Shown piece by piece: positions 49,662 through 61,872 of a DNA stretch of 64,000 nt. Numbering within the stretch: the stretch's first letter is position 1; every line of letters begins with the position of its first letter. The translations under genes and the position numbers were made by a program. The notes below the pieces were generated by a model. It did no database searches and was not told the DNA's origin. It saw nothing but the letters and a program-made list of their open reading frames with translations. The DNA comes from Litchfieldella anticariensis FP35 = DSM 16096 (lineage in GTDB: Bacteria > Pseudomonadota > Gammaproteobacteria > Pseudomonadales > Halomonadaceae): positions 196,552-260,551 of the forward strand of contig NZ_KE332388.1 of assembly GCF_000409775.1 (NCBI RefSeq). The letters are read 5' to 3'.

Positions 49662-51239
49662 TTAGAAACGCGAGGCCGGCAGCCACACGTCGGCCCGCTG
49701 CCAGACCAATTCGAACGCCCGCTCGACACGCTCGGCCCCCCCGTCCCGACCTTGGGCGGCAAGACTCTGCGCCAAACCTTTCAGCGACCAGCCGTTACCC
49801 GGATGGATCTCCAGTGCCTCATAATAGATGGCCTCCGCCTCCCATGCCTCGCCGGCATCGAGCAGGATCGCGCCCAGGAAATGACGTGCGGGGAGGGGCC
49901 AGGGTTCGGGCTCGCTGTAGGGCAACCCGTCTTCCAGTGCGATGGCCTTGCGCAGTTGTTCCCGAGCGGCATCGATACGACCCTCTCCCGCAGCGATCTC
50001 GCCGGCCAGGATATGCTCTGCGATACCCATCAAGTCGTGATGACGGGAGGACATGTCCTTGGCACCATCCCCACGGAGGTCGTGCAACTTACTCAACGCC
50101 ATCTCCGCTGCCGAGGTATTCCCGGTGCGCAGTTGCGCCAGGCCATGCGCGAAGTGCCACATCCCGGTCTGAAACGATCCTTCAGGCGAAGTCTGCTGTT
50201 CGAGCAGTTCGTCCCAGCGGCCGAAGCGAACGAGTTGCAGATGGACCTGGAAAGCCTCACTGGGCTGTTCACGGGCGATGTCGCGCGCGGCTGATAACGC
50301 CACGCCGCTTTGCCCGTCCATCCAAGCGGCGAAAAGCAGCATCAGGGTATTGTGCGAGGCATAGACACTCACCCCTTCACCGAATCGTGCCGATTGATCG
50401 ATCATGCGGGCTTTCTGATTGACACGAACGGCGTCGCCATAACGGCCGATGTTCATGTAAATGTGCGAGGGCATGTGCTGGATATGACTCACTCCAGGGA
50501 CCTCATCGGCCAGCACGTCGGCGCAAGCCTCGGCGCGTCTCGGTCGGGAAGCCTCCACAGCATGAATATAGTGATGGCAGGCGCCGGCATGACGGATATC
50601 CTCGGCGAGCACCGCCTCGAGTTCCTCGATCAATGTGAGGGTCTGCGGATACGGCTCCCCGTCCGTGCGATAGAGGTCCCAAGGGCGGAACATCATCAAC
50701 GCTTCGGCATGCAGCGTGCGCACATCGTGGTCATCGGGATGCGCCGTTGCCGCCTCGGCCATCACCTCGGCATAGCGCTGGGTGGCTATTTCCTGATCGG
50801 CATCACTGTCGGGGGTGGGATAGCGTACGCTCATGGCCTCGATCAGTGCACGCTCCCAAGGCGCAGCGGCATCGGCCAACTCGAGGGCTTGGCTGGCGGC
50901 GACATGGGCATCGCGCGGATCCCCCACGCCGTGAGGGTCGTTTAGATACGGACCCAATGCCCAGGCCTCGCCCCAATAACACATGGCGCAGCTCGGATCA
51001 TGTACCTGCGCCGCACGGAACGAGCGAGTGGCTTCCTCTCTGGCGAACCCATAGGCCAAGCGCAGGCCCTGGTCGAAATAGGCCTGGGCCTGTGTCGAGT
51101 CAGTGGTGATGGAACGACCGTAATCCCCCAGATTCTCATACAGTGGGATACCCGAGTCGGCATGGCTCAGCATGGGAAGGAACGCGCCAGCCACGGCACA
51201 GCCAACCATGGCCGACGCAATATAAGAGGTGGATGGCAT
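49662..51239 (-). CDS. Secreted tetratricopeptide-repeat protein
   Basis: 525 residues. The signal peptide is MPSTSYIASAMVGCAVAGAF ending at SHADS. TPR-like helices run through most of the protein (STQAQAYFDQGLRLAYGFAR, EEATRSFRAAQVHDPSCAMC). There are conserved motifs in this family of periplasmic TPR proteins: CYWGEAWALGP, CHHYIHAVEAS and HIQHMPSHIYMNIGRYGDA. The many His and Cys residues suggest metal or redox contacts, but the function is unknown. It is convergent with the aconitase gene. Confidence 0.8.
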   Translation of the reverse strand: MPSTSYIASAMVGCAVAGAFLPMLSHADSGIPLYENLGDYGRSITTDSTQAQAYFDQGLRLAYGFAREEATRSFRAAQVHDPSCAMCYWGEAWALGPYLNDPHGVGDPRDAHVAASQALELADAAAPWERALIEAMSVRYPTPDSDADQEIATQRYAEVMAEAATAHPDDHDVRTLHAEALMMFRPWDLYRTDGEPYPQTLTLIEELEAVLAEDIRHAGACHHYIHAVEASRPRRAEACADVLADEVPGVSHIQHMPSHIYMNIGRYGDAVRVNQKARMIDQSARFGEGVSVYASHNTLMLLFAAWMDGQSGVALSAARDIAREQPSEAFQVHLQLVRFGRWDELLEQQTSPEGSFQTGMWHFAHGLAQLRTGNTSAAEMALSKLHDLRGDGAKDMSSRHHDLMGIAEHILAGEIAAGEGRIDAAREQLRKAIALEDGLPYSEPEPWPLPARHFLGAILLDAGEAWEAEAIYYEALEIHPGNGWSLKGLAQSLAAQGRDGGAERVERAFELVWQRADVWLPASRF

Positions 51240-51433: not shown

Positions 51434-52372
51434 TTACACACGGCAAGCGGCGGCGATTTGGGCAATATGGCGGTGGTCCGTACCACAACAGCCGCCAAGT
51501 ACATTGATCCATGGATAACGCTGGCGCAGTGCCGCATATTGCCCCCCTAGTTCCACGGGATCCCCTTCATCGAGCACTTCAGCTTCGTCGAGCTCGGCAT
51601 GGCTGCAGCGCGAGGCATTGGCACGAATGCCTCGCAAGCGTCGTCCCCAGCCTGTGTCGGCAAGCACGCCTTCGAAATGAGTGGGATGCGCGCAGTTGAT
51701 CATGTAGTAAGCGGGAGCGTTGCCGGTGACCTCATCCACTTCGCCAATCGCTTCACCGAACGGCTGACCGGTCGGCAGCCGCCCGTCGGTTTCGACCGTG
51801 AACGAGATCACAGAGGGTAGACCTGCCGCTTTGGCCGCACGAGCAATGCCGATCGCCTCGGCACTATTGGTCATGGTGATGGCCGTCACCTGATCGACAT
51901 CCGATTCCGCGAACACACGAACTTGCCCCGAGTGATAATCGGCAGCTTGTTCAGGCGTCATCAAGGTACCAGGATCGTAGCCATCACCACGCGGCCCGAT
52001 GCAGCCACTGATGACCATTGGCGAGCGCCTTGTTTCCAACGCTTCGCGAAGCTCGTGCAGTATGGTGATGGCCTTGCGATTGGCATCATCGAGTTCTCGC
52101 GCTGAATAGCCGAGCTTATCGCCCCAATCCGGACTGGCACGCCAGGTCGCGCTCTCGAGTATGAAGCCCATGGCGCTGTCCCGAGCGATCTCGGCATGCT
52201 GCCAGTGATAGCGGCGCAGCGCTTCTGTGCCTTGCTCATTCTTGAGCAGATGGAAAGCCGCGAAATAGGGAAGCTCCAGCTTCTCGTGAAAGATGAGCGT
52301 GGTCTCGATTCCTGCATCAGTGAGGAACGGTTCCCCAGAAAGTTGGGGCAATTGAGTCCGGTATTTAGCCAT
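51434..52372 (-). CDS. Homocysteine S-methyltransferase family protein
   Basis: 312 residues from the ATG with GAGAGA 7 nt upstream. The Zn-thiolate residues are visible: Cys in NCAHPTHFEG and Cys-Cys in GGCCGTDHRH near the end. The barrel begins FLTDAGIETTLIFHE. Such enzymes use a methyl donor such as S-methylmethionine or a betaine. The gene is divergent from an AraC regulator, which may control it. Confidence 0.88.
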   Translation of the reverse strand: MAKYRTQLPQLSGEPFLTDAGIETTLIFHEKLELPYFAAFHLLKNEQGTEALRRYHWQHAEIARDSAMGFILESATWRASPDWGDKLGYSARELDDANRKAITILHELREALETRRSPMVISGCIGPRGDGYDPGTLMTPEQAADYHSGQVRVFAESDVDQVTAITMTNSAEAIGIARAAKAAGLPSVISFTVETDGRLPTGQPFGEAIGEVDEVTGNAPAYYMINCAHPTHFEGVLADTGWGRRLRGIRANASRCSHAELDEAEVLDEGDPVELGGQYAALRQRYPWINVLGGCCGTDHRHIAQIAAACRV

Positions 52373-52532
52373 GTTCACTTCTCTCTTGTTGTCGAAATAT
52401 CTGCTTCAGGAAACATCCGCCACACCATGGCTGGGATGTGAGGCTAAATTACTGGGAGGATCGAACGAACCATATGGCCGCGCTACCGGATTTCTTGTCC
52501 AGGCTGCCAGCAAACGCGGAGGCCGTACGAAT

Positions 52533-53492
52533 GTGGACACATTGGCAGAAATTCTACGAGCGATGAGGCTGTCGGGTGGTGTGTTCCTCGATGCGGAATT
52601 CACGGAGCCTTGGTGCATCAGATCCCAAGTGGAGCCGGAAGACTGCCACCAGTTCATGCGCATGCCGCCCCGGCTGATTGCCTATCACTATGTTGTCGAG
52701 GGACGTTTGACACTTTCTCTCGATGGGCAGCCACCCATGGAGGCCCACGAGAAGCAACTGCTCGTCCTGCCACGCAACGATGCCCACCTCCTGGGAAGCA
52801 CCCTGAATGCGGCTCCAGCCGATGCTGGCGCGCTTATCGAACCCGCCGGAGAGGATGGCCTGGGGCGAATTCGTTTCGGAGGCGGCGGTACGCGCACTCG
52901 CATCCTGTGCGGCTTTCTCGGCAGCGAAAATAGCAACGACCCACTGGTCGCTAGCCTTCCGCCCATCGTGAAGCTCGACCTGCACGACCGTCTGACCGGC
53001 CCCTGGATCGAAGGCTCCATGCGCTACGCGGCAAGCGAGGTCACGTCCGGCGGTGAAGGTGCTTCAGCAAACCTTGCCCGACTTGCCGAACTCCTGTTCG
53101 CCGAAGCGATACGCGAATACCTGAAAGCGCTCCCACCGCAACAGATGGGCTGGCTGGCCGGCCTGCGCGATCCCTACGTGGCACGTGCCCTCGCCTTGAT
53201 GCACGGGCACCCGGGGCAGCCCTGGACACTGGACGAATTGGCGCAACACGCCGGCCTCTCTCGCTCAGCCTTTTCAGAGCATTTCGTGCGCCTGGTCCGC
53301 GTCTCGCCAGTACGCTACCTGACCCGCCAGCGGCTGCAACGTGCTGCCGACCGGCTGCGTCAGAGTGGCGTGCCGATCAGCCGGATCGCCGATGAAGCCG
53401 GTTACGAATCCGAGGCATCATTCACCCGCGCCTTCAAGCGGGAATTCGGCACGGCACCGGGGGCTTTTCGCAGGCAGCAAGGGCACGTCTAG
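52533..53492 (+). CDS. AraC-family regulator with cupin_6 domain
   Basis: 319 residues from a GTG with GGAGG ~10 nt upstream; the family normally begins with (M/V)DxLAExLRAxRLSGG, as here. The N-terminal cupin_6-type domain (RLSGGVFLDAEFTEPWCIRS to ~200) is followed by a C-terminal AraC double HTH (LDELAQHAGLSRSAFSEHFV and VPISRIADEAGYESEASFTR). It is divergent from the S-methyltransferase gene. Confidence 0.9.
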   Translation: MDTLAEILRAMRLSGGVFLDAEFTEPWCIRSQVEPEDCHQFMRMPPRLIAYHYVVEGRLTLSLDGQPPMEAHEKQLLVLPRNDAHLLGSTLNAAPADAGALIEPAGEDGLGRIRFGGGGTRTRILCGFLGSENSNDPLVASLPPIVKLDLHDRLTGPWIEGSMRYAASEVTSGGEGASANLARLAELLFAEAIREYLKALPPQQMGWLAGLRDPYVARALALMHGHPGQPWTLDELAQHAGLSRSAFSEHFVRLVRVSPVRYLTRQRLQRAADRLRQSGVPISRIADEAGYESEASFTRAFKREFGTAPGAFRRQQGHV

Positions 53493-53530
53493 ACATTGGC
53501 CTCACGTGCCAGCTCCAGCAGCGGTGTTAG

Positions 53531-53701
53531 GGAAACGCTGAATAAACCGACGAGCATGCTCAAGCGCAAGGCGCACGGAGCACGGAGCACCGAGCACAGG
53601 AACCGGAGCATATGGGGGTATATGTGAGGATCCGCCGGTCCGACGCTTCGGCACCGCGCAACGCAGCGATTGAGTAGCGCAGGCATTTATTCAGTGTTTC
53701 C
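53531..53701. mobile_element. MITE-like element, copy 2
   Basis: 171 bp with terminal inverted repeats GGAAACGCTGAATAAA and TTTATTCAGTGTTTCC (16 bp, one mismatch). The internal sequence is largely that of copy 1 at 37479, plus a short GGAGCAC-type duplication. TTAG is present on both sides (53527-53530 and 53702-53705), a likely target duplication. It has no gene. Confidence 0.8.
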
Positions 53702-53733
53702 TTAGCTTCTCGCCTGAATAGGCCATGCCTTTA

Positions 53734-53769
53734 CCTGATAAAGGATGACGGTATTATTCCTTTATCAGG
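53734..53769. promoter_or_regulatory. 12-bp inverted repeat upstream of E1 gene
   Basis: CCTGATAAAGGA (53734-53745) and TCCTTTATCAGG (53758-53769) are perfect inverted repeats with centres 24 bp apart, ~50 bp upstream of the start. It could be an operator or a leader hairpin. Confidence 0.5.
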
Positions 53770-53817
53770 CAGGCACGCTACGCTCTAGGCAACACCACAA
53801 TAATGCCTGGAGTCGCC

Positions 53818-56052
53818 ATGCCGATTGATCCCTTGCCCCAGGAAGCGCTTTTTCTCACCGCCCTGCGTGACGATGATTGGCCTGAGCCTGCATCCGACTG
53901 GACACTCGACGCGGTCGGTCTCGATGCACCTGCGTTGGTCGAGTTGTTCGAGTCGCAATTGATGAGCCGCCACCTGGATTTGCACGCCCGACGCCTGCAA
54001 GCGCGTGGAGAGGCCTTCTACACTATCGGCAGTGCCGGGCATGAGGGTAACGCCGCCATTGCCCATGCCTTGCGACCGACGGATCCGGCCTTCCTGCACT
54101 ATCGTGATGCCGCTTTCCTGATCCAACGCAGCCGCGCCGTACCGGGCCAAACACCGTTGCGGGACCTGTTGCTGAGCTTTGCCGCGTCGGCAGAAGACCC
54201 GATCTCCGGCGGCCGACACAAGGTACTGGGGTCGAAGACGCTCAACATCCCGCCGCAGACCAGCACCATCGCCTCGCATCTGCCCAAAGCGATGGGTGCC
54301 GCCTATGGCCTGGGACTCTGGCGGCGTGTGAAGGACGGCGGCGAGTGGCCCGCCGACAGCGTGGTGCTATGCAGCTTCGGCGACGCCTCCTTCAACCACT
54401 CCACTGCACAAGGCGCACTCAACGCTGCCGGCTGGGCGGCCTACCAAGGCTCACCGATGCCGCTGGTGATGGTCTGCGAAGACAATGGCATCGGTATTTC
54501 CACTCCCACCCCAAGCGGCTGGATCGAGGCCAGCATGCGCTCGCGTCCCGGCTTCCATTACTTGAGCTGCAATGGACTCGACCTGCTCGATACCTGGTGC
54601 GCCTCCTGCGAGGCGGCCCGTATCGCACGCACCCGCAAGCAACCCGTGTTCCTGCACATGCACTGCGTACGGCTATTCGGCCATGCTGGCTCCGATGCCC
54701 AACAGGCCTACCTTACGCCACAGCAGATCAAGACCGACGAGGCGCGTGACCCGCTGCTGTTCAGCGCCGGTCTGCTGCGCCGCCACGGCGTACTCGACAA
54801 CGACGCCATCGCCACGCTCTACCACGCAACCAGCGAGCGCGTGGCCCGAGTGGCCGAAGAGGCGATTCGCCGGCCCAAGCTGGAAACTGCCGAGCAGGTC
54901 ATGGCCAGTATCGTGCCACCGTCCCGCCCTGGCCGTCGCCGCCTCTGGCAAGGCGAGGTGGACACTACTCCCGCGCCCATGGCCAAACTACTCAACCAAG
55001 CCCTGCAGCGCTTGATGAGTTGCTATCCGCACCTGGTAATGGCCGGCGAAGACATCGGCCGCAAGGGAGGCGTCTACGGAGTCACCCAAAAGTTGCAAGC
55101 CAATTTTGGGCTACATCGGGTGATCGATACCCTGCTCGACGAGCAAAGTATCCTCGGGCTTGGCATCGGCCTGGCCCAGAACGGCTTGATTCCGATCCTG
55201 GAGATTCAGTTTTTAGCCTATCTGCACAACGCCGAGGATCAATTACGCGGCGAGGCTGCCACACTCAGCTTCTTTTCCAATGGTCAGTACACCAACCCGA
55301 TGGTGGTGCGCATCGCCGGGCTCGGCTATCAGAAAGGCTTCGGCGGTCACTTCCACAACGACAACGCCATCGCCGTGCTACGCGACATCCCCGGCTTGCT
55401 GGTGGCCTGTCCGTCGAACGCCGCCGACGCGGTGGGCCTGCTGCAGGAGGCAGTGCGCTTGGCCGATGAAGAACAGCGCGTGGTGGTGTTACTCGAACCC
55501 ATCGCGCTCTACCACAACCGCGACCTGCTCGAGACAGACGACCAGAAGTGGTGTTTCGCCGACCCTGGGCCGGACTACCGCTTGCCGGTGGGCGAACTCG
55601 GCCAGTGGGGTGAAGGAAAGGAACTCGCCATTCTCACCTATGGCAACGGAGTCCATCTCTCGCGCCAAGCCGCCGTCCGTCTGGAGGCTGATGGTATCGC
55701 CCTTCGCATCATCGACCTGCGCTGGCTCACCGCCATCGATCATGATGCGGTACATCGCCGAGTGAGCGACTGTACGCAGATCCTGGTGGTGGGCGAGTGC
55801 CGCCGTAGCGGCTCCGTCAGCGAAGAATTGATCACCGCCCTGGTCGAGCGCGGCGTAGCAAGCGAGCGACTACACCGGCTCACTGCCGAGGACAGCTTCA
55901 TTCCACTGGGCCGGGCAGCGACGGCGACCCTGCCTTCGGTAGCCTCCATTATCGAATATGCCCAGCGTGCAGTGGGTACGGCCAGCAAACGAATCGGTAA
56001 GCCGGATGAGACGATGAGCGACAAGACATTAGCAGGGAGCGACAAGGTATGA
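53818..56052 (+). CDS. Fused alpha/beta 2-oxoacid dehydrogenase E1
   Basis: 744 residues from the ATG with GGAG 5 nt upstream. The first ~350 residues match the E1 alpha subunit of branched-chain or acetoin/pyruvate-type complexes, with the TPP motif in SFGDASFNHSTAQGALNAAG and DNGIGIST. The rest (~380-720) matches the E1 beta subunit, with GEDIGRKGGVYGVTQ and EIQFLAYLHNAEDQL. Fusing alpha and beta is known but less common. No E2 or E3 gene is adjacent, so the partner is elsewhere or the enzyme acts alone. Confidence 0.88.
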   Translation: MPIDPLPQEALFLTALRDDDWPEPASDWTLDAVGLDAPALVELFESQLMSRHLDLHARRLQARGEAFYTIGSAGHEGNAAIAHALRPTDPAFLHYRDAAFLIQRSRAVPGQTPLRDLLLSFAASAEDPISGGRHKVLGSKTLNIPPQTSTIASHLPKAMGAAYGLGLWRRVKDGGEWPADSVVLCSFGDASFNHSTAQGALNAAGWAAYQGSPMPLVMVCEDNGIGISTPTPSGWIEASMRSRPGFHYLSCNGLDLLDTWCASCEAARIARTRKQPVFLHMHCVRLFGHAGSDAQQAYLTPQQIKTDEARDPLLFSAGLLRRHGVLDNDAIATLYHATSERVARVAEEAIRRPKLETAEQVMASIVPPSRPGRRRLWQGEVDTTPAPMAKLLNQALQRLMSCYPHLVMAGEDIGRKGGVYGVTQKLQANFGLHRVIDTLLDEQSILGLGIGLAQNGLIPILEIQFLAYLHNAEDQLRGEAATLSFFSNGQYTNPMVVRIAGLGYQKGFGGHFHNDNAIAVLRDIPGLLVACPSNAADAVGLLQEAVRLADEEQRVVVLLEPIALYHNRDLLETDDQKWCFADPGPDYRLPVGELGQWGEGKELAILTYGNGVHLSRQAAVRLEADGIALRIIDLRWLTAIDHDAVHRRVSDCTQILVVGECRRSGSVSEELITALVERGVASERLHRLTAEDSFIPLGRAATATLPSVASIIEYAQRAVGTASKRIGKPDETMSDKTLAGSDKV

Positions 56053-56123
56053 GCCAAGACACCATCGCACTGTTGCTCAGCATGGGCATCGAAGAGCAGC
56101 GGAATATGCTGGTGAAGGCATGA
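56049..56123 (+). other. 24-codon overlapping ORF after E1
   Basis: ATG overlaps the E1 stop (ATGA) and encodes MSQDTIALLLSMGIEEQRNM plus four residues. The overlap suggests translational coupling. It is either a tiny protein or the front of a deleted downstream gene. Confidence 0.3.
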
Positions 56124-56156
56124 CCGCCAACCGAGGCATCAACATTGTAACGGTGG

Positions 56157-57209
56157 TTAATCCATTGAGTGGCGGTGACCACTGGTGAGTATATGGTGCA
56201 GACCATCGCACTCCACCATGGGGTCGTCACAATTGATGACCGTGTCCGAACGGGCCAACACGTGCCCTTTGCCGGTAATGGTGTTTTCCACCACTTGATG
56301 AGTACCTTCCTGCCGTGAACCAGTAAACTCGCCGATGAAGCCGGAATCGCGCAGAGACACGGTTTCCAACTTGTCGCCTGGCTGGATAGTACCTTCGTAA
56401 TGCATCAAGGCCAGCCGCGCCGAGGTACCGGTACCGGTGGTACTGCGACAGATCACTCCTTGATGCACATAAGTGGCCGAACGCGAGCGATAGAAACCAT
56501 CCGCCACATGCTCGACCGGCCCCATGAAGTGTAGAAACGGCAGCGGTCCCACATCGCCCAGCGTGTAATGGGAGAAACCGCTATGCGCCTGGATCGCTTC
56601 CACGATCGCGTGGGCACACGTCGCCAGGCGCCTTTCCTCGTCCGGGGTCAGGGCGAACCCTAGATCGGCGGCCTCCACCAGGGCATAGAAACCGCCACTG
56701 TAGGCGACGCTATAGGTCACATCGCCGATCGACGGAACATGAATACTGGCCTTGTAGGTGTCGATGTAGGTGGGCAGTCCTTCACAGGTGATGGCCTCCA
56801 CCACGCCGTTTTCCACCAGCGCCTCGATATGCACCAAGCCGGCCGGCGACTCCAATATGAAGCGCTGACGACCTTCCCGTTTCTCGATCATGCCGGTTTG
56901 CAATAGCGCCGTGGCCGTGCAGATGGTGTTGGAGCCGGAATAGATCGGATAGCCCATCACCTCCATGATGATGTAGCCCATGTCGGCCTCGGGGTCGGTA
57001 GCGGGAACGATCAGATTCACCGACATCTCGGGCATACCATACGGTTCATGCAGCAGAAGCTTACGCAGGCCATCGGCATCGTCGCGCAGATATTCCATCT
57101 GCTCCCTGACTGTAGCGCCAGGCAATGGGTCGATACCCCCGATCACGATGCGGCTGACATCGCCGCCAGCATGGGTATCGATCAGCCGTATGCTCAGCTC
57201 GTGACTCAT
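56157..57209 (-). CDS. Proline racemase family protein with altered active site
   Basis: 350 residues of the proline racemase/hydroxyproline epimerase/trans-3-hydroxyproline dehydratase superfamily: IDTHAGGDVSRIVIGG at the start, GFYALVEAADLG and RSTTGTGTSARLALMH. The first catalytic Cys position is Ser91 (YSGSNTI) and the second is Thr258 (CRSTTGTG instead of DRSPCGTG). A Cys/Thr pair is known for dehydratases, but Ser/Thr is unusual, so the reaction is uncertain. The gene overlaps the oxidoreductase gene by 4 bp (ATGA), so the two are one operon. Confidence 0.85.
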   Translation of the reverse strand: MSHELSIRLIDTHAGGDVSRIVIGGIDPLPGATVREQMEYLRDDADGLRKLLLHEPYGMPEMSVNLIVPATDPEADMGYIIMEVMGYPIYSGSNTICTATALLQTGMIEKREGRQRFILESPAGLVHIEALVENGVVEAITCEGLPTYIDTYKASIHVPSIGDVTYSVAYSGGFYALVEAADLGFALTPDEERRLATCAHAIVEAIQAHSGFSHYTLGDVGPLPFLHFMGPVEHVADGFYRSRSATYVHQGVICRSTTGTGTSARLALMHYEGTIQPGDKLETVSLRDSGFIGEFTGSRQEGTHQVVENTITGKGHVLARSDTVINCDDPMVECDGLHHILTSGHRHSMD

Positions 57210-58381
57210 CCTGTCGTCTCCAACGCGTAAGGCACGCCATGCTCTTGCCACTGTGAGTCCGGGACGATCACGATCTTGCCCAGAAAGTTGCTGCTGCGAT
57301 TGACGAAGTAGGTTTCGGCTTCATGCAAGTCGGACAGTTTGAATGCCGCATGCAGTACCGGCTTCAACTGACCAGAGCGAATCCATTCCACCAGTTGCTT
57401 GGCCTCTTCGCGGGTGCCGTGGGATACCCCAAAGATCTGCACCTGATACAGATAGATACGGGTCCACATGATCTCGCTGACGTTGCCAGCGCTAGCCCCG
57501 GCAATACTAAGGCGCGGGTAGGTCGTGCGGCGCTTCATGTCGAAAATCATGGTGTCGATGAAGTGATTGGTCATCTCGCCACCGGCAAGGTCCATCACCG
57601 CATCGATAGGCTGGTCCCCGGTCACCGCACGCACCTTGTCGGTGAAATCCTGCATGTTTGAGCGGTCCAACACAGCTTCTGCCCCCAGCTCGAGCAGTGC
57701 CTGGGCCTTGTCCTGCTTGCTGAGAGCATATGGAATCGCGCCCATGATGCGGCACAACTGAATCAATGCCGTACCCACGCCTCCACTGGCACCGGTGACC
57801 AGCACACGTTCGCCGGCTTTCACGTTGGCGGCGTTCAGCATGTGCAGGGCGGTCTGGTAGGAACACATTCCCATCGCGGCAAGCTCTGCATCGGCAAGTT
57901 CGGGGTTGCCTACCGTATGGAACTGATTCGACGGCACGGCGATGTACTCGGCGAAACCACCGTCAGCACCGTGGCCGTAGTAATCCGGTGTCAGATTGAT
58001 GTCGGGACGCTCATCGGCGTACAGATTGAAATCCAGCAGCCCGCGCTGCCCAATGCGCTCGGCATCCACGCCTTCACCCACGGCAACCACGCGACCGGCC
58101 ACATCGGCACCCTGGATACGCGGGAAGGTCAAGGTCGGTGATCCACCGATCTGGAATGAGGTCACATCGCCCTTGTCTTGCGTAGGATAGAGCCCCTCTC
58201 GTGCCTTGCGGTCGGTATTGTTCTTCGCCGTGGCCGTAACCTTCACCAGCACCTCACCCTTGGCAGGCTTAGGGGTGGGCACATCCTGACGATAGACCAG
58301 CTTGTCGATATCACCATGCCCGGTCAGCAGCATAGCCGACATGGTGTCGGGAACGTTCTCCGGGAGAGTATCGGAAACCAT
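57206..58381 (-). CDS. MDR-family zinc/quinone oxidoreductase
   Basis: 391 residues from the ATG with AGGAGG 7 nt upstream. Medium-chain dehydrogenase/reductase: GADVAGRVVAVGEG, the Rossmann motif VTGASGGVGTALIQLCRIMG, and SYQTALHMLNAANVKAGERV. Structural-zinc cysteines are absent and the catalytic site is quinone-reductase-like, so an NADPH reductase is more likely than an alcohol dehydrogenase. It is upstream of and overlaps the racemase-family gene. Confidence 0.85.
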   Translation of the reverse strand: MVSDTLPENVPDTMSAMLLTGHGDIDKLVYRQDVPTPKPAKGEVLVKVTATAKNNTDRKAREGLYPTQDKGDVTSFQIGGSPTLTFPRIQGADVAGRVVAVGEGVDAERIGQRGLLDFNLYADERPDINLTPDYYGHGADGGFAEYIAVPSNQFHTVGNPELADAELAAMGMCSYQTALHMLNAANVKAGERVLVTGASGGVGTALIQLCRIMGAIPYALSKQDKAQALLELGAEAVLDRSNMQDFTDKVRAVTGDQPIDAVMDLAGGEMTNHFIDTMIFDMKRRTTYPRLSIAGASAGNVSEIMWTRIYLYQVQIFGVSHGTREEAKQLVEWIRSGQLKPVLHAAFKLSDLHEAETYFVNRSSNFLGKIVIVPDSQWQEHGVPYALETTG

Positions 58382-58474
58382 GTGCTGCCTCCTTGCGTTG
58401 ATCGCTACGTCATAGCGCGACCATAACAAATTTGCTCTTGCACCCGAAAACACGTTAGAGATGGGAGGTGCTCA

Positions 58475-58789
58475 TCAAGTGTAGTGAACTGCTAGCCATA
58501 TTGTTTCCTGATCAGGGGCCGTCCATTTCACCCTATGTTTTTCATGGGCTGGTATATTGACATGGTCACCAGGTTTGAGGGTCACCTCACCGCCCTGCTC
58601 AAACGCAAGAATAGCCGCTCCCTTCAGCACTATGACCCACTCGTTCCGGTCCTGATCATACCAACCAGTATCCGGGGAACTGTGGCCCTTGGAAACGATA
58701 CGCTCGACTCTGACGTCCTTGCCTTCAACGATGATGTCGAATACCTCTTCATCGATATTTTCCGTTATTGACTCAAACAGATTCTGCAT
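58475..58789 (-). CDS. Small cupin-domain protein
   Basis: 104 residues from an ATG with GGAG 10 nt upstream. The conserved cupin strands are visible: NEWVIVLKGAAILAF and LKPGDHVNIPAHEKHRVKWT, with His in PAHEKHR. The N-terminal acidic part (MQNLFESITENIDEEVFDII) is typical of small single-domain cupins. It precedes the oxidoreductase gene by 93 bp on the same strand and may belong to the same operon. Function unknown. Confidence 0.85.
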   Translation of the reverse strand: MQNLFESITENIDEEVFDIIVEGKDVRVERIVSKGHSSPDTGWYDQDRNEWVIVLKGAAILAFEQGGEVTLKPGDHVNIPAHEKHRVKWTAPDQETIWLAVHYT

Positions 58790-58841
58790 ACTGCTTTGCT
58801 CCAAATACCATGCAGGAAGTGCCGCCAAGGCATGGTTGATA

Positions 58842-59819
58842 TCAATGAGGAATTGCTGATTGCACCATGCACAGTGACAAGCGCTGGCTAAGTACGCGAT
58901 GACGGGCCTGCAAACCGTGAAAGAGCCGATCGCGTAGCCAGACATGACCGGCATCGGCCTGATAACGTTCATGCCATACCAGCCAATAGGAAAACGGCGC
59001 CACCTCCAAGGGCAACGATCGTACTGCCAACGGCCAGCAGTCAGCCACGCTAGCAGCCAGGCAACCAGGTATGCACAACAACAGATCGCTATGCTGGGCA
59101 ATCGAAAAACCGGCTAGAAAATGTGGCTGGCGCAGACTGACACGTCGTTTGAGCCCGAGCTTGGCCAGTGCCAGATCTACCACTCCGCGATCGTCGCCTC
59201 CCATACTGATCAGCTGATGGTCGGCTTCGATAAAGGCCTCCAATGTCAAGGCATTGCTGTCAGGAGCGGCCAACGGATGCTCTCGGCGCATCACGCATAC
59301 GAAATGATCGTCGCCAATCTCACGACCATGCACAGAGGCCGGTACCCGGCCAGTGGGTGAGCATATTGCCAATTCCGGCCCGCCTTCGTCGAGTTGGTGC
59401 TCGATATTGCCGCCATGGGCTTGAATATCCAACCGCATTTGAGGCGCTTCGGCCTTGAGTGTCTCCCACTGCGGCGCCAAGAAAGCATGCATGCTGTAGT
59501 CGGTGCTGGCCACCCTGAAACGCCGAGTGGTGCTGGCCGGCTGGAACTCGGGCGGCGCCAGTAAGGTATCCAGCTCCTGCAACAAACGCTCCAGAGGTGG
59601 CCCTAGTGCCACGGCCCGGGCGGTAGGGCGCAAACCACGATGCGTGCGCACGAATAGCGGGTCATTGAATGCACGACGCAGCCGCGCCAAGGTACGAGAT
59701 ACCGCAGGCTGGCTGAGATTGAGACGTTCGGCGGCACGTGACACGCTGTGAGAATCAAGCAGTGCGTGCAGCGTCACCAAGGCATTGAGGTCGTGGCGGG
59801 CAAGTTCGGCCAAATGCAT
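58842..59819 (-). CDS. LysR-family regulator, divergent from CurA-like gene
   Basis: 325 residues. The HTH is SHSVSRAAERLNLSQPAVSR (~23-42) followed by RAFNDPLFVRTHRGLRPTAR, characteristic of the PA0477/NodD-like LysR branch. The effector domain follows from ~95. Two CATGATATC repeats lie in the divergent region to the NADP oxidoreductase gene, which it probably regulates. Confidence 0.88.
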   Translation of the reverse strand: MHLAELARHDLNALVTLHALLDSHSVSRAAERLNLSQPAVSRTLARLRRAFNDPLFVRTHRGLRPTARAVALGPPLERLLQELDTLLAPPEFQPASTTRRFRVASTDYSMHAFLAPQWETLKAEAPQMRLDIQAHGGNIEHQLDEGGPELAICSPTGRVPASVHGREIGDDHFVCVMRREHPLAAPDSNALTLEAFIEADHQLISMGGDDRGVVDLALAKLGLKRRVSLRQPHFLAGFSIAQHSDLLLCIPGCLAASVADCWPLAVRSLPLEVAPFSYWLVWHERYQADAGHVWLRDRLFHGLQARHRVLSQRLSLCMVQSAIPH

Positions 59820-59864
59820 ACAACCCTCATCGATATGGGGAATATGGGCAGAATATCAATGACC

Positions 59865-59919
59865 CATGATATCAGCTTCATGCATATCACTTTTGAGTCA
59901 CTTGCATTGGCATGATATC
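59865..59919. promoter_or_regulatory. Two CATGATATC direct repeats
   Basis: Identical 9-mers at 59865-59873 and 59911-59919 (46 bp apart) lie in the 152-bp gap between the LysR gene and the oxidoreductase gene. They are possible regulator-binding sites. Confidence 0.45.
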
Positions 59920-59971
59920 GCAGAACTACTGTAGCCTGAGTGCATTCCTATCCGCGAGAAGGAACCCAACC

Positions 59972-60970
59972 ATGCAGTCACGCTATTTCGTCATCAATGA
60001 CCGCCCCCAAGGCATGCCGGAACGTGGATTGTTCGAACTACATACGATCGAATTGCCATCACTGAAAGACGGAGAAGTAAGGGTCCGCAACACCTGGCTC
60101 TCGGTCGATCCCTATATGCGTGGTCGCATGAACGGGATAAAGACCTATGTCGAGCCTTTCGAACTCAACGCCCCTCTCGAAGGTGGAGCCATCGGTGAAG
60201 TCATCGAGTCGCGCAACTCGCGCTTTCCTGAAGGAAGCAAGGTGCTACATAACGCCGGATGGCGCGATGTCGCTCAATTGACGGGAGAAGCCTTGGATCC
60301 GCTACCCAAACTCGAGGTACCGGAGCAAGCCTATCTAGGTGTACTCGGCATGCCGGGCATGACCGCCTGGACTGGTCTCAACCTGATTGCCGAAATGCGC
60401 GAAGGTGACAATGTCCTGGTCAGTGCCGCCAGTGGTGCGGTGGGCTCCTTGGTAGTCCAATTGGCCAAGGCCAAAGGTGGCACCGTGGTCGGCATCGCCG
60501 GCTCGCAAGAGAAGCTCGACTGGCTGGAATCACACGGCATCAAGGCAATCAGCTACCGTGACAAGAATGCCGAGCAATTGAGCGCCGACCTCAAGCAGGC
60601 TTGCCCCGAGGGTTTCGATGTTTATTTCGAGAACGTTGGTGATATATGCCTGGAGGCGGCATTGACCAATCTTCGTCTAGGAGCGCGGATCGCCATTTGC
60701 GGCCTGATCGCTCGCTACAATGATGAAACTCCGGGTCATGGCCCAAGCAACTTGGACATGGTCCTGATCCAACGAGCACACATACAAGGCTTCATCGTTC
60801 TCGATCACTGGTCACAGTACCCACGTTTCCTGGAGGAAGTTGGCCCACAGGTGGCCAACGGCGAGATCGACTACGAGGAAACCATCGAGGACGGTCTGGA
60901 ACGTATGCCAGATGCTTTCTTGAAACTGTTCGAAGGGAGCAACCGAGGCAAGATGCTGGTGCGATTGTAA
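59972..60970 (+). CDS. NADP-dependent oxidoreductase (CurA/YncB-like)
   Basis: 332 residues. Leukotriene-B4-dehydrogenase-like MDR: the start MQSRYFVINDRPQGMPERG, the typical substrate-side block LSVDPYMRGRMN, GMPGMTAWTGL, then the cofactor motif SAASGAVGSLVVQLAKAKG and YFENVG. It reduces the double bond of enones with NADPH; curcumin reductase is the model. AAGGAA precedes the ATG at 7 nt. It ends at a terminator. Confidence 0.93.
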   Translation: MQSRYFVINDRPQGMPERGLFELHTIELPSLKDGEVRVRNTWLSVDPYMRGRMNGIKTYVEPFELNAPLEGGAIGEVIESRNSRFPEGSKVLHNAGWRDVAQLTGEALDPLPKLEVPEQAYLGVLGMPGMTAWTGLNLIAEMREGDNVLVSAASGAVGSLVVQLAKAKGGTVVGIAGSQEKLDWLESHGIKAISYRDKNAEQLSADLKQACPEGFDVYFENVGDICLEAALTNLRLGARIAICGLIARYNDETPGHGPSNLDMVLIQRAHIQGFIVLDHWSQYPRFLEEVGPQVANGEIDYEETIEDGLERMPDAFLKLFEGSNRGKMLVRL

Positions 60971-60988
60971 GCCACGTGGGCATCAAGA

Positions 60989-61019
60989 AGCCGGCAGCAG
61001 CGTAAGTGTGCTGCCGGCT
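60989..61019 (+). terminator. Terminator of the CurA-like gene
   Basis: AGCCGGCAGCA and TGCTGCCGGCT pair around a 9-nt loop and are followed by CCCTTCCTT. The T run is imperfect; it may act in both directions, since the next gene is convergent. Confidence 0.75.
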
Positions 61020-61066
61020 CCCTTCCTTATAGACGAGCCAACCAGTTTCCCGTCAAAACTATTGGC

Positions 61067-61822
61067 TCAGGACTTCTGCCACTCCGCATCGACAAGGCCG
61101 TTCAGATATCGTGCCGGCAGGTGTGGCCACTGCAGAAGCCTCAAGCCCGCCCACAGGCTCACCTGGTTGGCCGTGAGCACGACCCGCCCAGCCTGTCGAT
61201 TCATCGTGTCGACCAGTTCCAGAGTATTGATTGCCGTATCGGGAACGAGCAGCGGGATCTCTTCATCGTGATTCACCTCGCAGAAGGCACGCACTTCCTG
61301 CACGATATCGACTTGATGAGAGTCCGCCGCATATGGGCAATCGAGCACCTTGATGTTGCCCACTGTCACACCGCTATCATGCAGGAAAGCGACCAGTTGC
61401 TCGGTCACGTCTGCCGGATAGGGACTGAGCAGATCGACGCATCGGTAGCCGAGTGCCAACACTGCTTCACGGAAAGCGAGCGCGGTGCTGATGACCGGCA
61501 CACCCAACCGCTTCTCCAGATCGCTGGCCTGAGCTTGGGCCCATTCAAGGCCGCCAATGAAACTCCCACTGGTACACGCCCAAATCACGGCTTGAGCTCT
61601 GCCTTCACGCACCAACACTTCGCCGACAGGGGCCAGACGTTCTGTTGCCCCAAGCGCCAATAGCGCCTCCGAAGCATGATGGCCATCACTCTTGATCTGC
61701 CCCACTTCGATCCTGGGCGCCCCCCCCTCCTGAAAGGCTGGACTGCGGTCAAGCCCATACCACTCATAATCAGGTGGCCCATCTTCGGGAAGAAGAATTC
61801 CCAAGCATTTTTCGACCGGCAT
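61067..61822 (-). CDS. Asp/Glu racemase superfamily protein, maleate-isomerase/AMDase-like
   Basis: 251 residues from an ATG with GGGGAG 7 nt upstream; a longer start is less supported. It has the tandem-domain fold of arylmalonate decarboxylase and maleate isomerase: GILLPEDGPPDYEWY at the N-terminus and VIWACTSGSFIGG with Cys83. The second catalytic Cys position has Asp195 (LLVPDTAINT), so a two-Cys racemization is unlikely; decarboxylation or isomerization using one Cys is possible. The substrate is unknown. No transporter is adjacent. Confidence 0.8.
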   Translation of the reverse strand: MPVEKCLGILLPEDGPPDYEWYGLDRSPAFQEGGAPRIEVGQIKSDGHHASEALLALGATERLAPVGEVLVREGRAQAVIWACTSGSFIGGLEWAQAQASDLEKRLGVPVISTALAFREAVLALGYRCVDLLSPYPADVTEQLVAFLHDSGVTVGNIKVLDCPYAADSHQVDIVQEVRAFCEVNHDEEIPLLVPDTAINTLELVDTMNRQAGRVVLTANQVSLWAGLRLLQWPHLPARYLNGLVDAEWQKS

Positions 61823-61872
61823 ATCATGACTCCCCGCCATTCAGCGATATCGAAAAGCTAACATATGGCAAC

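Follow-up and report, generated by a model that had tools for sequence, protein, structure and literature searches.

We examined a pair of genes in a 64,000-nucleotide stretch of Litchfieldella anticariensis FP35 DNA (the window; contig NZ_KE332388.1), whose host is a Halomonadaceae genome of 5.07 Mb (G000). One gene encodes a protein of the proline-racemase superfamily (PRS); the other, upstream on the same minus strand, encodes a reductase of the medium-chain dehydrogenase/reductase (MDR) family. Both open reading frames (ORFs) are intact, and we tentatively propose that their products act together, in this salt-loving bacterium, to convert the salt protectant 5-hydroxyectoine back to ectoine. 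The features under discussion are as follows.

56157..57209, minus strand: PRS gene (PF05544), 350 amino acids (aa) from the ATG; proposed 5-hydroxyectoine dehydratase.
57206..58381, minus strand: gene of an MDR-family reductase (391 aa), proposed to yield ectoine.
57206..57209, minus strand: 4-bp stop/start overlap of MDR and PRS (ATGA), read from the sequence.
58388..58394, minus strand: AAGGAGG, a ribosome-binding-like sequence that precedes the MDR start.
56937..56939, minus strand: PRS Ser91 codon; predicted general base, equivalent of the catalytic Ser90 in Ser/Thr trans-3-hydroxyproline dehydratase (t3HypD).
56928..56930, minus strand: PRS Asn94 codon; equivalent of Asn93, which positions the catalytic Ser.
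56448..56450, minus strand: PRS Cys254 codon; stands where an Asp otherwise coordinates the prolyl nitrogen (Asp 232 in Q4KGU2).
56436..56438, minus strand: PRS Thr258 codon; second dyad position, corresponding to Thr256 in Ser/Thr t3HypD.

An earlier note on this DNA had pointed to the 4-bp overlap with a reductase gene, which is indeed present, and the pairing extends well beyond the window. In the best 80 of 266 PRS relatives, an MDR gene lies directly upstream of the PRS gene on the same strand (80/80 loci), and its product is 76 to 87% identical to the window MDR; in one locus (L031), the gene is cut by the contig end. An MDR gene of Tsukamurella (45% identity) likewise overlaps its PRS gene. 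Since the PRS-MDR pairing is real and conserved, dehydration followed by reduction, as that note had suggested, is a sensible reading of it.

PRS matched PF05544 with 275.9 bits (cut-off, 27), which places it in the superfamily, and it fell below the cut-off of all six NCBIfam proline/hydroxyproline equivalogs that it matched. The best of these was NF047722, a t3HypD model (258.2 of 550 bits), and a second such model, NF045511, scored 149.2 of 540 bits; the proline racemase/4-hydroxyproline epimerase models NF010576 and NF010578 gave 191.7 of 556 and 156.9 of 376 bits, respectively. The EutB model TIGR02991 was not among the six NCBIfam families matching PRS at E values up to 0.001. In HMMER searches, the top solved relative by sequence was 4K7G, the t3HypD of Agrobacterium vitis, with YSGSN of the query aligned to MSGSN and CRSTTGTG to DRSPTGTG. 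Aligned to solved structures, PRS fills the catalytic columns with S91 and T258, while N94 aligns with the Asn of the 4K7G motif, C97 with a Cys outside the catalytic dyad and C254 with Asp. S91, S93, N94, C97, C254, R255 and T258 are identical in 81/81 rows (the window plus the 80 loci). The earlier note's claims of a Ser91/Thr258 active site in which both cysteines are replaced and of a Cys254 standing in for the Asp before the second site are therefore upheld, and neither C97 nor C254, the residues that it had singled out for checking, occupies a catalytic column. The pattern required of a t3HypD (a Ser or Cys base with Thr opposite) is present as S91/T258, the second position being held by Thr258 and not by the acid/base Cys of racemases and epimerases.

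The dyad itself is not new. PMC4113996 describes a t3HypD with Ser90/Thr256, in which Ser90 is the dehydration residue and is held by Asn93 and Thr256 is in a non-catalytic orientation; 4K7G, which we equated with B9K4G4 of that paper by title and ligand (the paper labels B9K4G4 inconsistently), shows these residues. We therefore rejected the novelty of a Ser/Thr dyad, and the list of known dyads in the earlier note was incomplete on this point. The same paper reports that the residues coordinating the prolyl nitrogen are Asp together with His, or with Ser in the Ser types, and that one or both Cys residues are missing in some PRS clusters; we saw no description there of a Cys at the Asp position. 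Judged from the sequence, the unusual residue of PRS is Cys254 rather than the Ser/Thr dyad.

The AlphaFold2 model of PRS, built from 21 rows (the window and 20 related loci), had a mean predicted local distance difference test score of 75.8 (other four models, 56.7 to 73.0) and a predicted template modeling score of 0.81. Its top match in both Foldseek and VIA-align was 4K7G (in VIA-align: Z, 34.4; root mean square deviation, 2.9; 321 residues). Because the other PRS entries listed in the VIA-align comparison also scored Z values of 27.8 to 33.2, the fold shows the superfamily, not the substrate.

In a tree of 71 PRS rows, for which eight of the 80 close loci were picked by hand and stop-containing, short and duplicate rows were dropped, the 30 Cys254 rows made up one side of a 100/100 branch. 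This side holds the close proteins of Halomonadaceae, Marinobacter, Alloalcanivorax and Alkalilimnicola, the 51 to 52% homologues of Tsukamurella and genome G105, a 38% paralogue from G000 itself and two Sinorhizobium proteins with a Ser/Ala dyad; the paralogue and the Sinorhizobium proteins join it by long branches, on which the program issued a warning. Among the rows compared, the first motif reads GGD in Cys254 rows and GE (in a few, GN) in Asp rows. The paralogue (G000:C1:284665-285681; L104, L145) reads ICRGPTGTG, with Cys at the Asp column, and had no MDR match within the surrounding 20 kb, while the three other PRS genes of G000 keep the Asp. The Sinorhizobium proteins (L143 and L144) are encoded near betaine/proline ATP-binding cassette (ABC) transporter genes, and the L144 locus also contains a flavin adenine dinucleotide oxidoreductase gene sharing 78% identity with a neighbor of the Paracoccus ectoine cluster. 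In one Halomonadaceae genome, a stop and a frame change break up the PRS gene (G010:C1:3272926-3273944). A degenerate DNA pattern for CRxxTGTGT, which matched in 50/369 genomes, mostly by chance, revealed carriers in two further families.

The partner gene was assigned to the MDR superfamily by its ADH_N (51.9 bits; cut-off, 23.5) and ADH_zinc_N (57.5 bits; cut-off, 31.8) domains, with PF00107, PF08240 and PF13602 all passing, and its best NCBIfam matches were quinone- and crotonyl-CoA-reductase models, below cut-off. By its sequence, the window MDR presumably lacks the catalytic zinc ligands, as would a member of the zinc-free reductase type. Its top solved relative is 4J6F (324 bits over residues 8 to 375), which matches the whole length of the MDR in a doeC-doeD-MDR stretch of Sinorhizobium meliloti 1021. 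We opened five MDR homologue regions, in plasmid records. The Paracoccus yeei homologue (63.7% identity) ends the order ehuCD-eutABC-doeA-doeB-doeC-doeD-MDR; those of S. meliloti and Phyllobacterium (46 to 47%) have ehu and eut genes in their regions and doeD beside the MDR gene; that of Rhizobium N324 (46%) follows doeC-doeD only, with no ehu or eut genes; and the Nitratireductor region (49%) has neither ehu/eut nor doe genes annotated. In addition, a doeD homologue 67 to 71% identical to Paracoccus doeD adjoins the MDR gene in 11/11 loci of family f64 (L188-L198), which are all the other MDR matches at E 1e-80 in the phylum sample. A COG604 oxidoreductase gene is among the ectoine-induced genes of S. 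meliloti and belongs to the EutR regulon of several Rhizobiales (PMC5320631), and an adh gene of ectoine clusters has been given no defined role (PMC5924519); its position leads us to equate this adh/COG604 gene with the MDR gene found here. A close MDR (>600 bits) was present in 9/398 genomes of the phylum sample, seven of them with an adjoining close PRS gene (the split one in G010 included), and of the remaining two, G105 has only a 51% PRS elsewhere and G001 no close PRS. Operon neighbors other than the MDR gene were rejected as general clues, as each is limited to some lineages.

We then compared gene content across 101 Halomonadaceae genomes, counting PRS at E 1e-90 or better (G830 is partial), ectD at E 1e-78 or better with weak hits dropped, eutD above its curated cut-off (outside the family, at E 1e-100) and eutB at 366 bits or more. 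By these measures, PRS was present in 46 genomes, ectD in 79, eutD in 83 and eutB in 56 plus 6 weaker cases, the latter being g6 genomes at 313 to 330 bits; no eutB passes the curated cut-off of 413, and the three weak cases that were checked lie in doeC-doeD-eutB-eutC stretches. A single in-frame stop interrupts the matched stretch in six of the 46 PRS carriers, of which five keep an open frame of at least 352 aa and one, G010, has a split gene. ectD was found in 45/46 genomes with PRS versus 34/55 without it (P = 5e-6, Fisher test, relatedness ignored). eutD and ectD occur together in 75 genomes, of which 28 have PRS and eutB, 15 PRS only and 32 eutB only, and none lacks both (P = 8e-5 for complementarity, relatedness ignored). 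The eight genomes with eutD and no ectD comprise six without PRS and eutB, one with both and one with eutB, and two genomes with ectD and no eutD (G795 and G828) have neither. At the thresholds used, five PRS carriers (G780, G804, G172, G208 and G589) have ectD without eutD, which favors the intact ring as the substrate. With few independent events behind it, this phylogenetic profile is suggestive, not proof.

According to PMC13188858, every Vreelandella species and one third of Halomonas species lack eutBC; two named Vreelandella loci (L075 and L084) carry the PRS-MDR pair. Cells of Halomonas salifodinae IM328 (JADOTW) lacking doeA retained 1 of 2 g/L hydroxyectoine at 48 h, and the authors of that study inferred further hydroxyectoine pathways (PMC11142988); the pair is present on a contig of this strain (L073; NZ_JADOTW010000002.1).

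Outside the family, eight carriers were set against 58 hand-picked non-carriers, 25 from the order rows and 33 from the CRxxTGTGT pattern search. Full-length ectC was found in 8/8 carriers versus 14/58 non-carriers (fragment G271 excluded; P = 5.6e-5, Fisher test), ectD in 4/8 versus 6/58 (P = 0.015), and ectD or eutD in 7/8 versus 9/58 (P = 1e-4). G105 was counted as a carrier, its PRS being a 51% homologue with the MDR gene on another contig. Five non-carriers had a pattern match (G437, G439, G443, G482 and G524); G439 and G482 gave no PRS hit, and the other three were judged by their matched letters, which differ from CRSTT. The three carriers of family f246 have an ectoine hydrolase homologue at 485 to 494 bits, under the curated cut-off of 613. 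One carrier, G693, has three ectoine-synthase-family genes (C16, C56 and C69).

From the related genomes, we predict, with a probability of about 0.4, that PRS and MDR form a two-step module that removes the 5-hydroxyl of 5-hydroxyectoine. In hydroxyectoine, a ring carbon bearing H, the carboxylate and N lies next to the OH-bearing carbon, which is the alpha-H/beta-OH arrangement of trans-3-hydroxyproline. PRS would use the Ser-type mechanism of the Ser/Thr t3HypDs: Ser91, positioned by Asn94, would abstract the alpha proton at ring C4, and the beta hydroxyl at C5 would be expelled as water in a syn elimination, with 2-methyl-1,6-dihydropyrimidine-4-carboxylate as the expected product. MDR, of the quinone-reductase/crotonyl-CoA-reductase type, would then reduce this compound with NAD(P)H to ectoine, which could be reused as an osmolyte or passed to DoeA. 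The same intermediate has been proposed for EutB by Schulz and coworkers, with EutC reducing it to ectoine after EutA has first inverted the hydroxyl (PMC5924519); EutA is reported missing from Halomonadaceae (PMC13188858). The pair would thus replace EutB and EutC with unrelated proteins and leave EutA unneeded. What the analysis shows is the gene pair with its conservation, the active-site residues, the fold and the co-occurrences; the substrate, the order of the steps, the cofactor and the direction are what we infer here. In its fullest form, which we hold a little more tentatively still, the proposal is that a cofactor-free dehydratase and an NAD(P)H reductase convert 5-hydroxyectoine to ectoine, a non-homologous alternative to EutABC that would take PRS outside proline chemistry and run the EctD reaction in reverse in halophiles without EutBC or even DoeA, with Cys254 marking the binding of a substrate that has no secondary amine.

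Several observations weigh against this proposal. When labels were shuffled within genera, the association of PRS with ectD gave P = 0.036 and was carried by genus g3 alone (PRS in 2/2 genomes with ectD and 0/6 without), and across all 101 genomes PRS and eutB were unassociated (P = 0.23). Independent contrasts are few: g10, g12 and part of g20 lack eutB and keep PRS and ectD, whereas g7, g16 and G847 lack all three. Outside the family, G693 carries the pair and ectC without ectD or eutD, and ectD is missing from three f246 carriers, two with eutBC and one with eutC at the edge of a contig. The ΔdoeA IM328 strain lost ectoine to an equal extent, and eutBC is present in it as well. G001, which belongs to the same genus as the window's host, has the MDR gene without a close PRS, and in Paracoccus, S. 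meliloti and Phyllobacterium, where the MDR gene accompanies eut genes, it may serve a different step. Comparisons reaching up to 7 kb to either side of the pair in the 80 loci gave no match to doeA, doeB, eutA, eutB, eutC or ehuD. Moreover, DoeA/EutD is reported to open hydroxyectoine directly (PMC13188858, PMC8739950), in which case prior dehydration is not needed, and the Asp-to-Cys change is not obviously accounted for by an amidinium ring nitrogen.

PRS could instead be a t3HypD served by a new kind of pyrroline-2-carboxylate reductase, an MDR in place of an ornithine cyclodeaminase (OCD) or malate/lactate dehydrogenase 2 (MLD2) protein. That its nearest solved structure is the t3HypD 4K7G and that S91, N94 and T258 are kept would suit such an enzyme, but the Asp coordinating the prolyl nitrogen is Cys in 81/81 rows, NF047722 gave 258 of 550 bits, the partners described for t3HypDs are OCD or MLD2 reductases (PMC4113996) and three other PRS genes of G000 retain the Asp; we consider it unlikely. 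More generally, proline and the hydroxyprolines, which the earlier note had put forward as substrates, are less likely because the nitrogen-binding Asp is gone, the scores of all six equivalog models are far under cut-off and co-occurrence points to hydroxyectoine. The substrate of PRS is probably not hydroxyproline.

A betaine, such as a hydroxylated proline betaine, is an equally improbable substrate; as a quaternary amine it has no N-H to bind, which could account for Cys in place of Asp. Betaine/proline ABC transporter genes lie within ~5 to 8 kb of the genes for the two Sinorhizobium Cys254 proteins, and one of these proteins has an enolase-like gene beside its own. In four Chromohalobacter loci the pair comes after a gene of the choline-sulfatase type, and in two Alloalcanivorax loci it is followed by a major facilitator superfamily transporter gene (each assigned by Pfam for one locus). 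However, these Sinorhizobium proteins are only 35 to 37% identical to PRS, are Ser/Ala rather than Ser/Thr and have no MDR gene annotated nearby, and the sulfatase and transporter clusters occur in 4/86 and 6/86 of the loci examined, respectively.

It is slightly less probable again that the pair acts after ring opening, on hydroxy-α-N-acetyl-diaminobutyrate (hydroxy-alpha-ADABA) or hydroxy-diaminobutyrate (hydroxy-DABA), at the place that newer work gives to EutABC. This would agree with the way PRS and eutB complement each other in genomes that have eutD and ectD, and with the newer proposal itself, in which EutD opens hydroxyectoine first (PMC13188858), but opened compounds are unexpected in the five ectD-containing carriers without eutD at the thresholds used, and the substrates of the PRS activities in PMC4113996 are cyclic, being proline derivatives. 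Least probable is that PRS racemizes or epimerizes its substrate, or that it dehydrates a branched-chain hydroxy acid tied to valine catabolism: the pair of one Marinobacter locus (L034) does lie between 3-hydroxyisobutyrate-dehydrogenase-type and acyl-CoA synthetase genes, but the synthetase and dehydrogenase clusters occur in 10/86 and 4/86 of the loci examined, and a Ser/Thr dyad lacks the second acid/base Cys, the Thr256 of Ser/Thr t3HypD being in a non-catalytic orientation (PMC4113996).

Eight further window proteins (51434-61840, and a tetratricopeptide-repeat-like ORF at 49662-51239) were unmatched in the 80 loci except in L015 and L073, at 30 to 32%, and a promoter scan at the locus gave 0 promoter-like sites and 1 terminator-like site, not above shuffled sequence. 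A fused E1 alpha/beta dehydrogenase gene (53803-56052, plus strand) faces the PRS gene, and a LysR-type regulator gene (58842-59819, minus strand) has BsrA as its top NCBIfam match (183 of 480 bits). At 61067-61840 on the minus strand lies the gene of an arylmalonate-decarboxylase-type protein with a weak EutA match (TIGR02990, 50.5 of 318 bits). In G001, a 71% homologue of this protein adjoins the MDR gene in place of PRS (L204), and a 90% homologue of the dehydrogenase is also found upstream of the MDR region.

The route by which bacteria take the hydroxyl off hydroxyectoine is unsettled; the precise EutABC steps were called uncertain in 2021 (PMC8739950). A two-gene candidate opens this question to direct testing with purified proteins. 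The open-access library that we searched held nothing joining a proline racemase with ectoine, hydroxyectoine or Marinobacter and one paper joining it with hydroxyproline betaine, and among the matches listed for hydroxyectoine, racemase and Halomonas, none was about a proline racemase. If the prediction is true, it would bear on engineered hydroxyectoine producers, in which doeA deletion does not fully stop loss (PMC11142988), and it would widen the substrate range of the PRS superfamily.

Among known systems, 4K7G resembles PRS in its fold, in its Ser base with an Asn, in the Thr on the other face and in dehydrating a beta-OH adjacent to a carboxylate, an activity that is predicted for PRS; the two are 32 to 34% identical, and PRS differs in having Cys254 for Asp and GD for GE in the first motif. 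Whereas the reported partners of t3HypDs are OCD or MLD2, the fixed neighbor of PRS is MDR in 80/80 loci (neither flanks nor genomes were searched for OCD or MLD2). Proline racemase and 4-hydroxyproline epimerase share the superfamily fold but have Cys/Cys or Ser/Cys with Asp and carry out a two-base epimerization (PMC4113996). 4J6F, an MDR from the ectoine region of S. meliloti, is 46% identical to the window MDR, and its gene comes after doeC-doeD homologues; its region differs from the window in that its 17-kb stretch contains no PRS match. A functional parallel would be EutB and EutC, for which the same overall step has been proposed (PMC5924519). These are threonine-dehydratase-type and ornithine-cyclodeaminase-type proteins, unlike PRS and MDR, and their route needs inversion at C5 by EutA, which the PRS route would not; all 75 Halomonadaceae genomes that combine eutD with ectD contain PRS or eutB.

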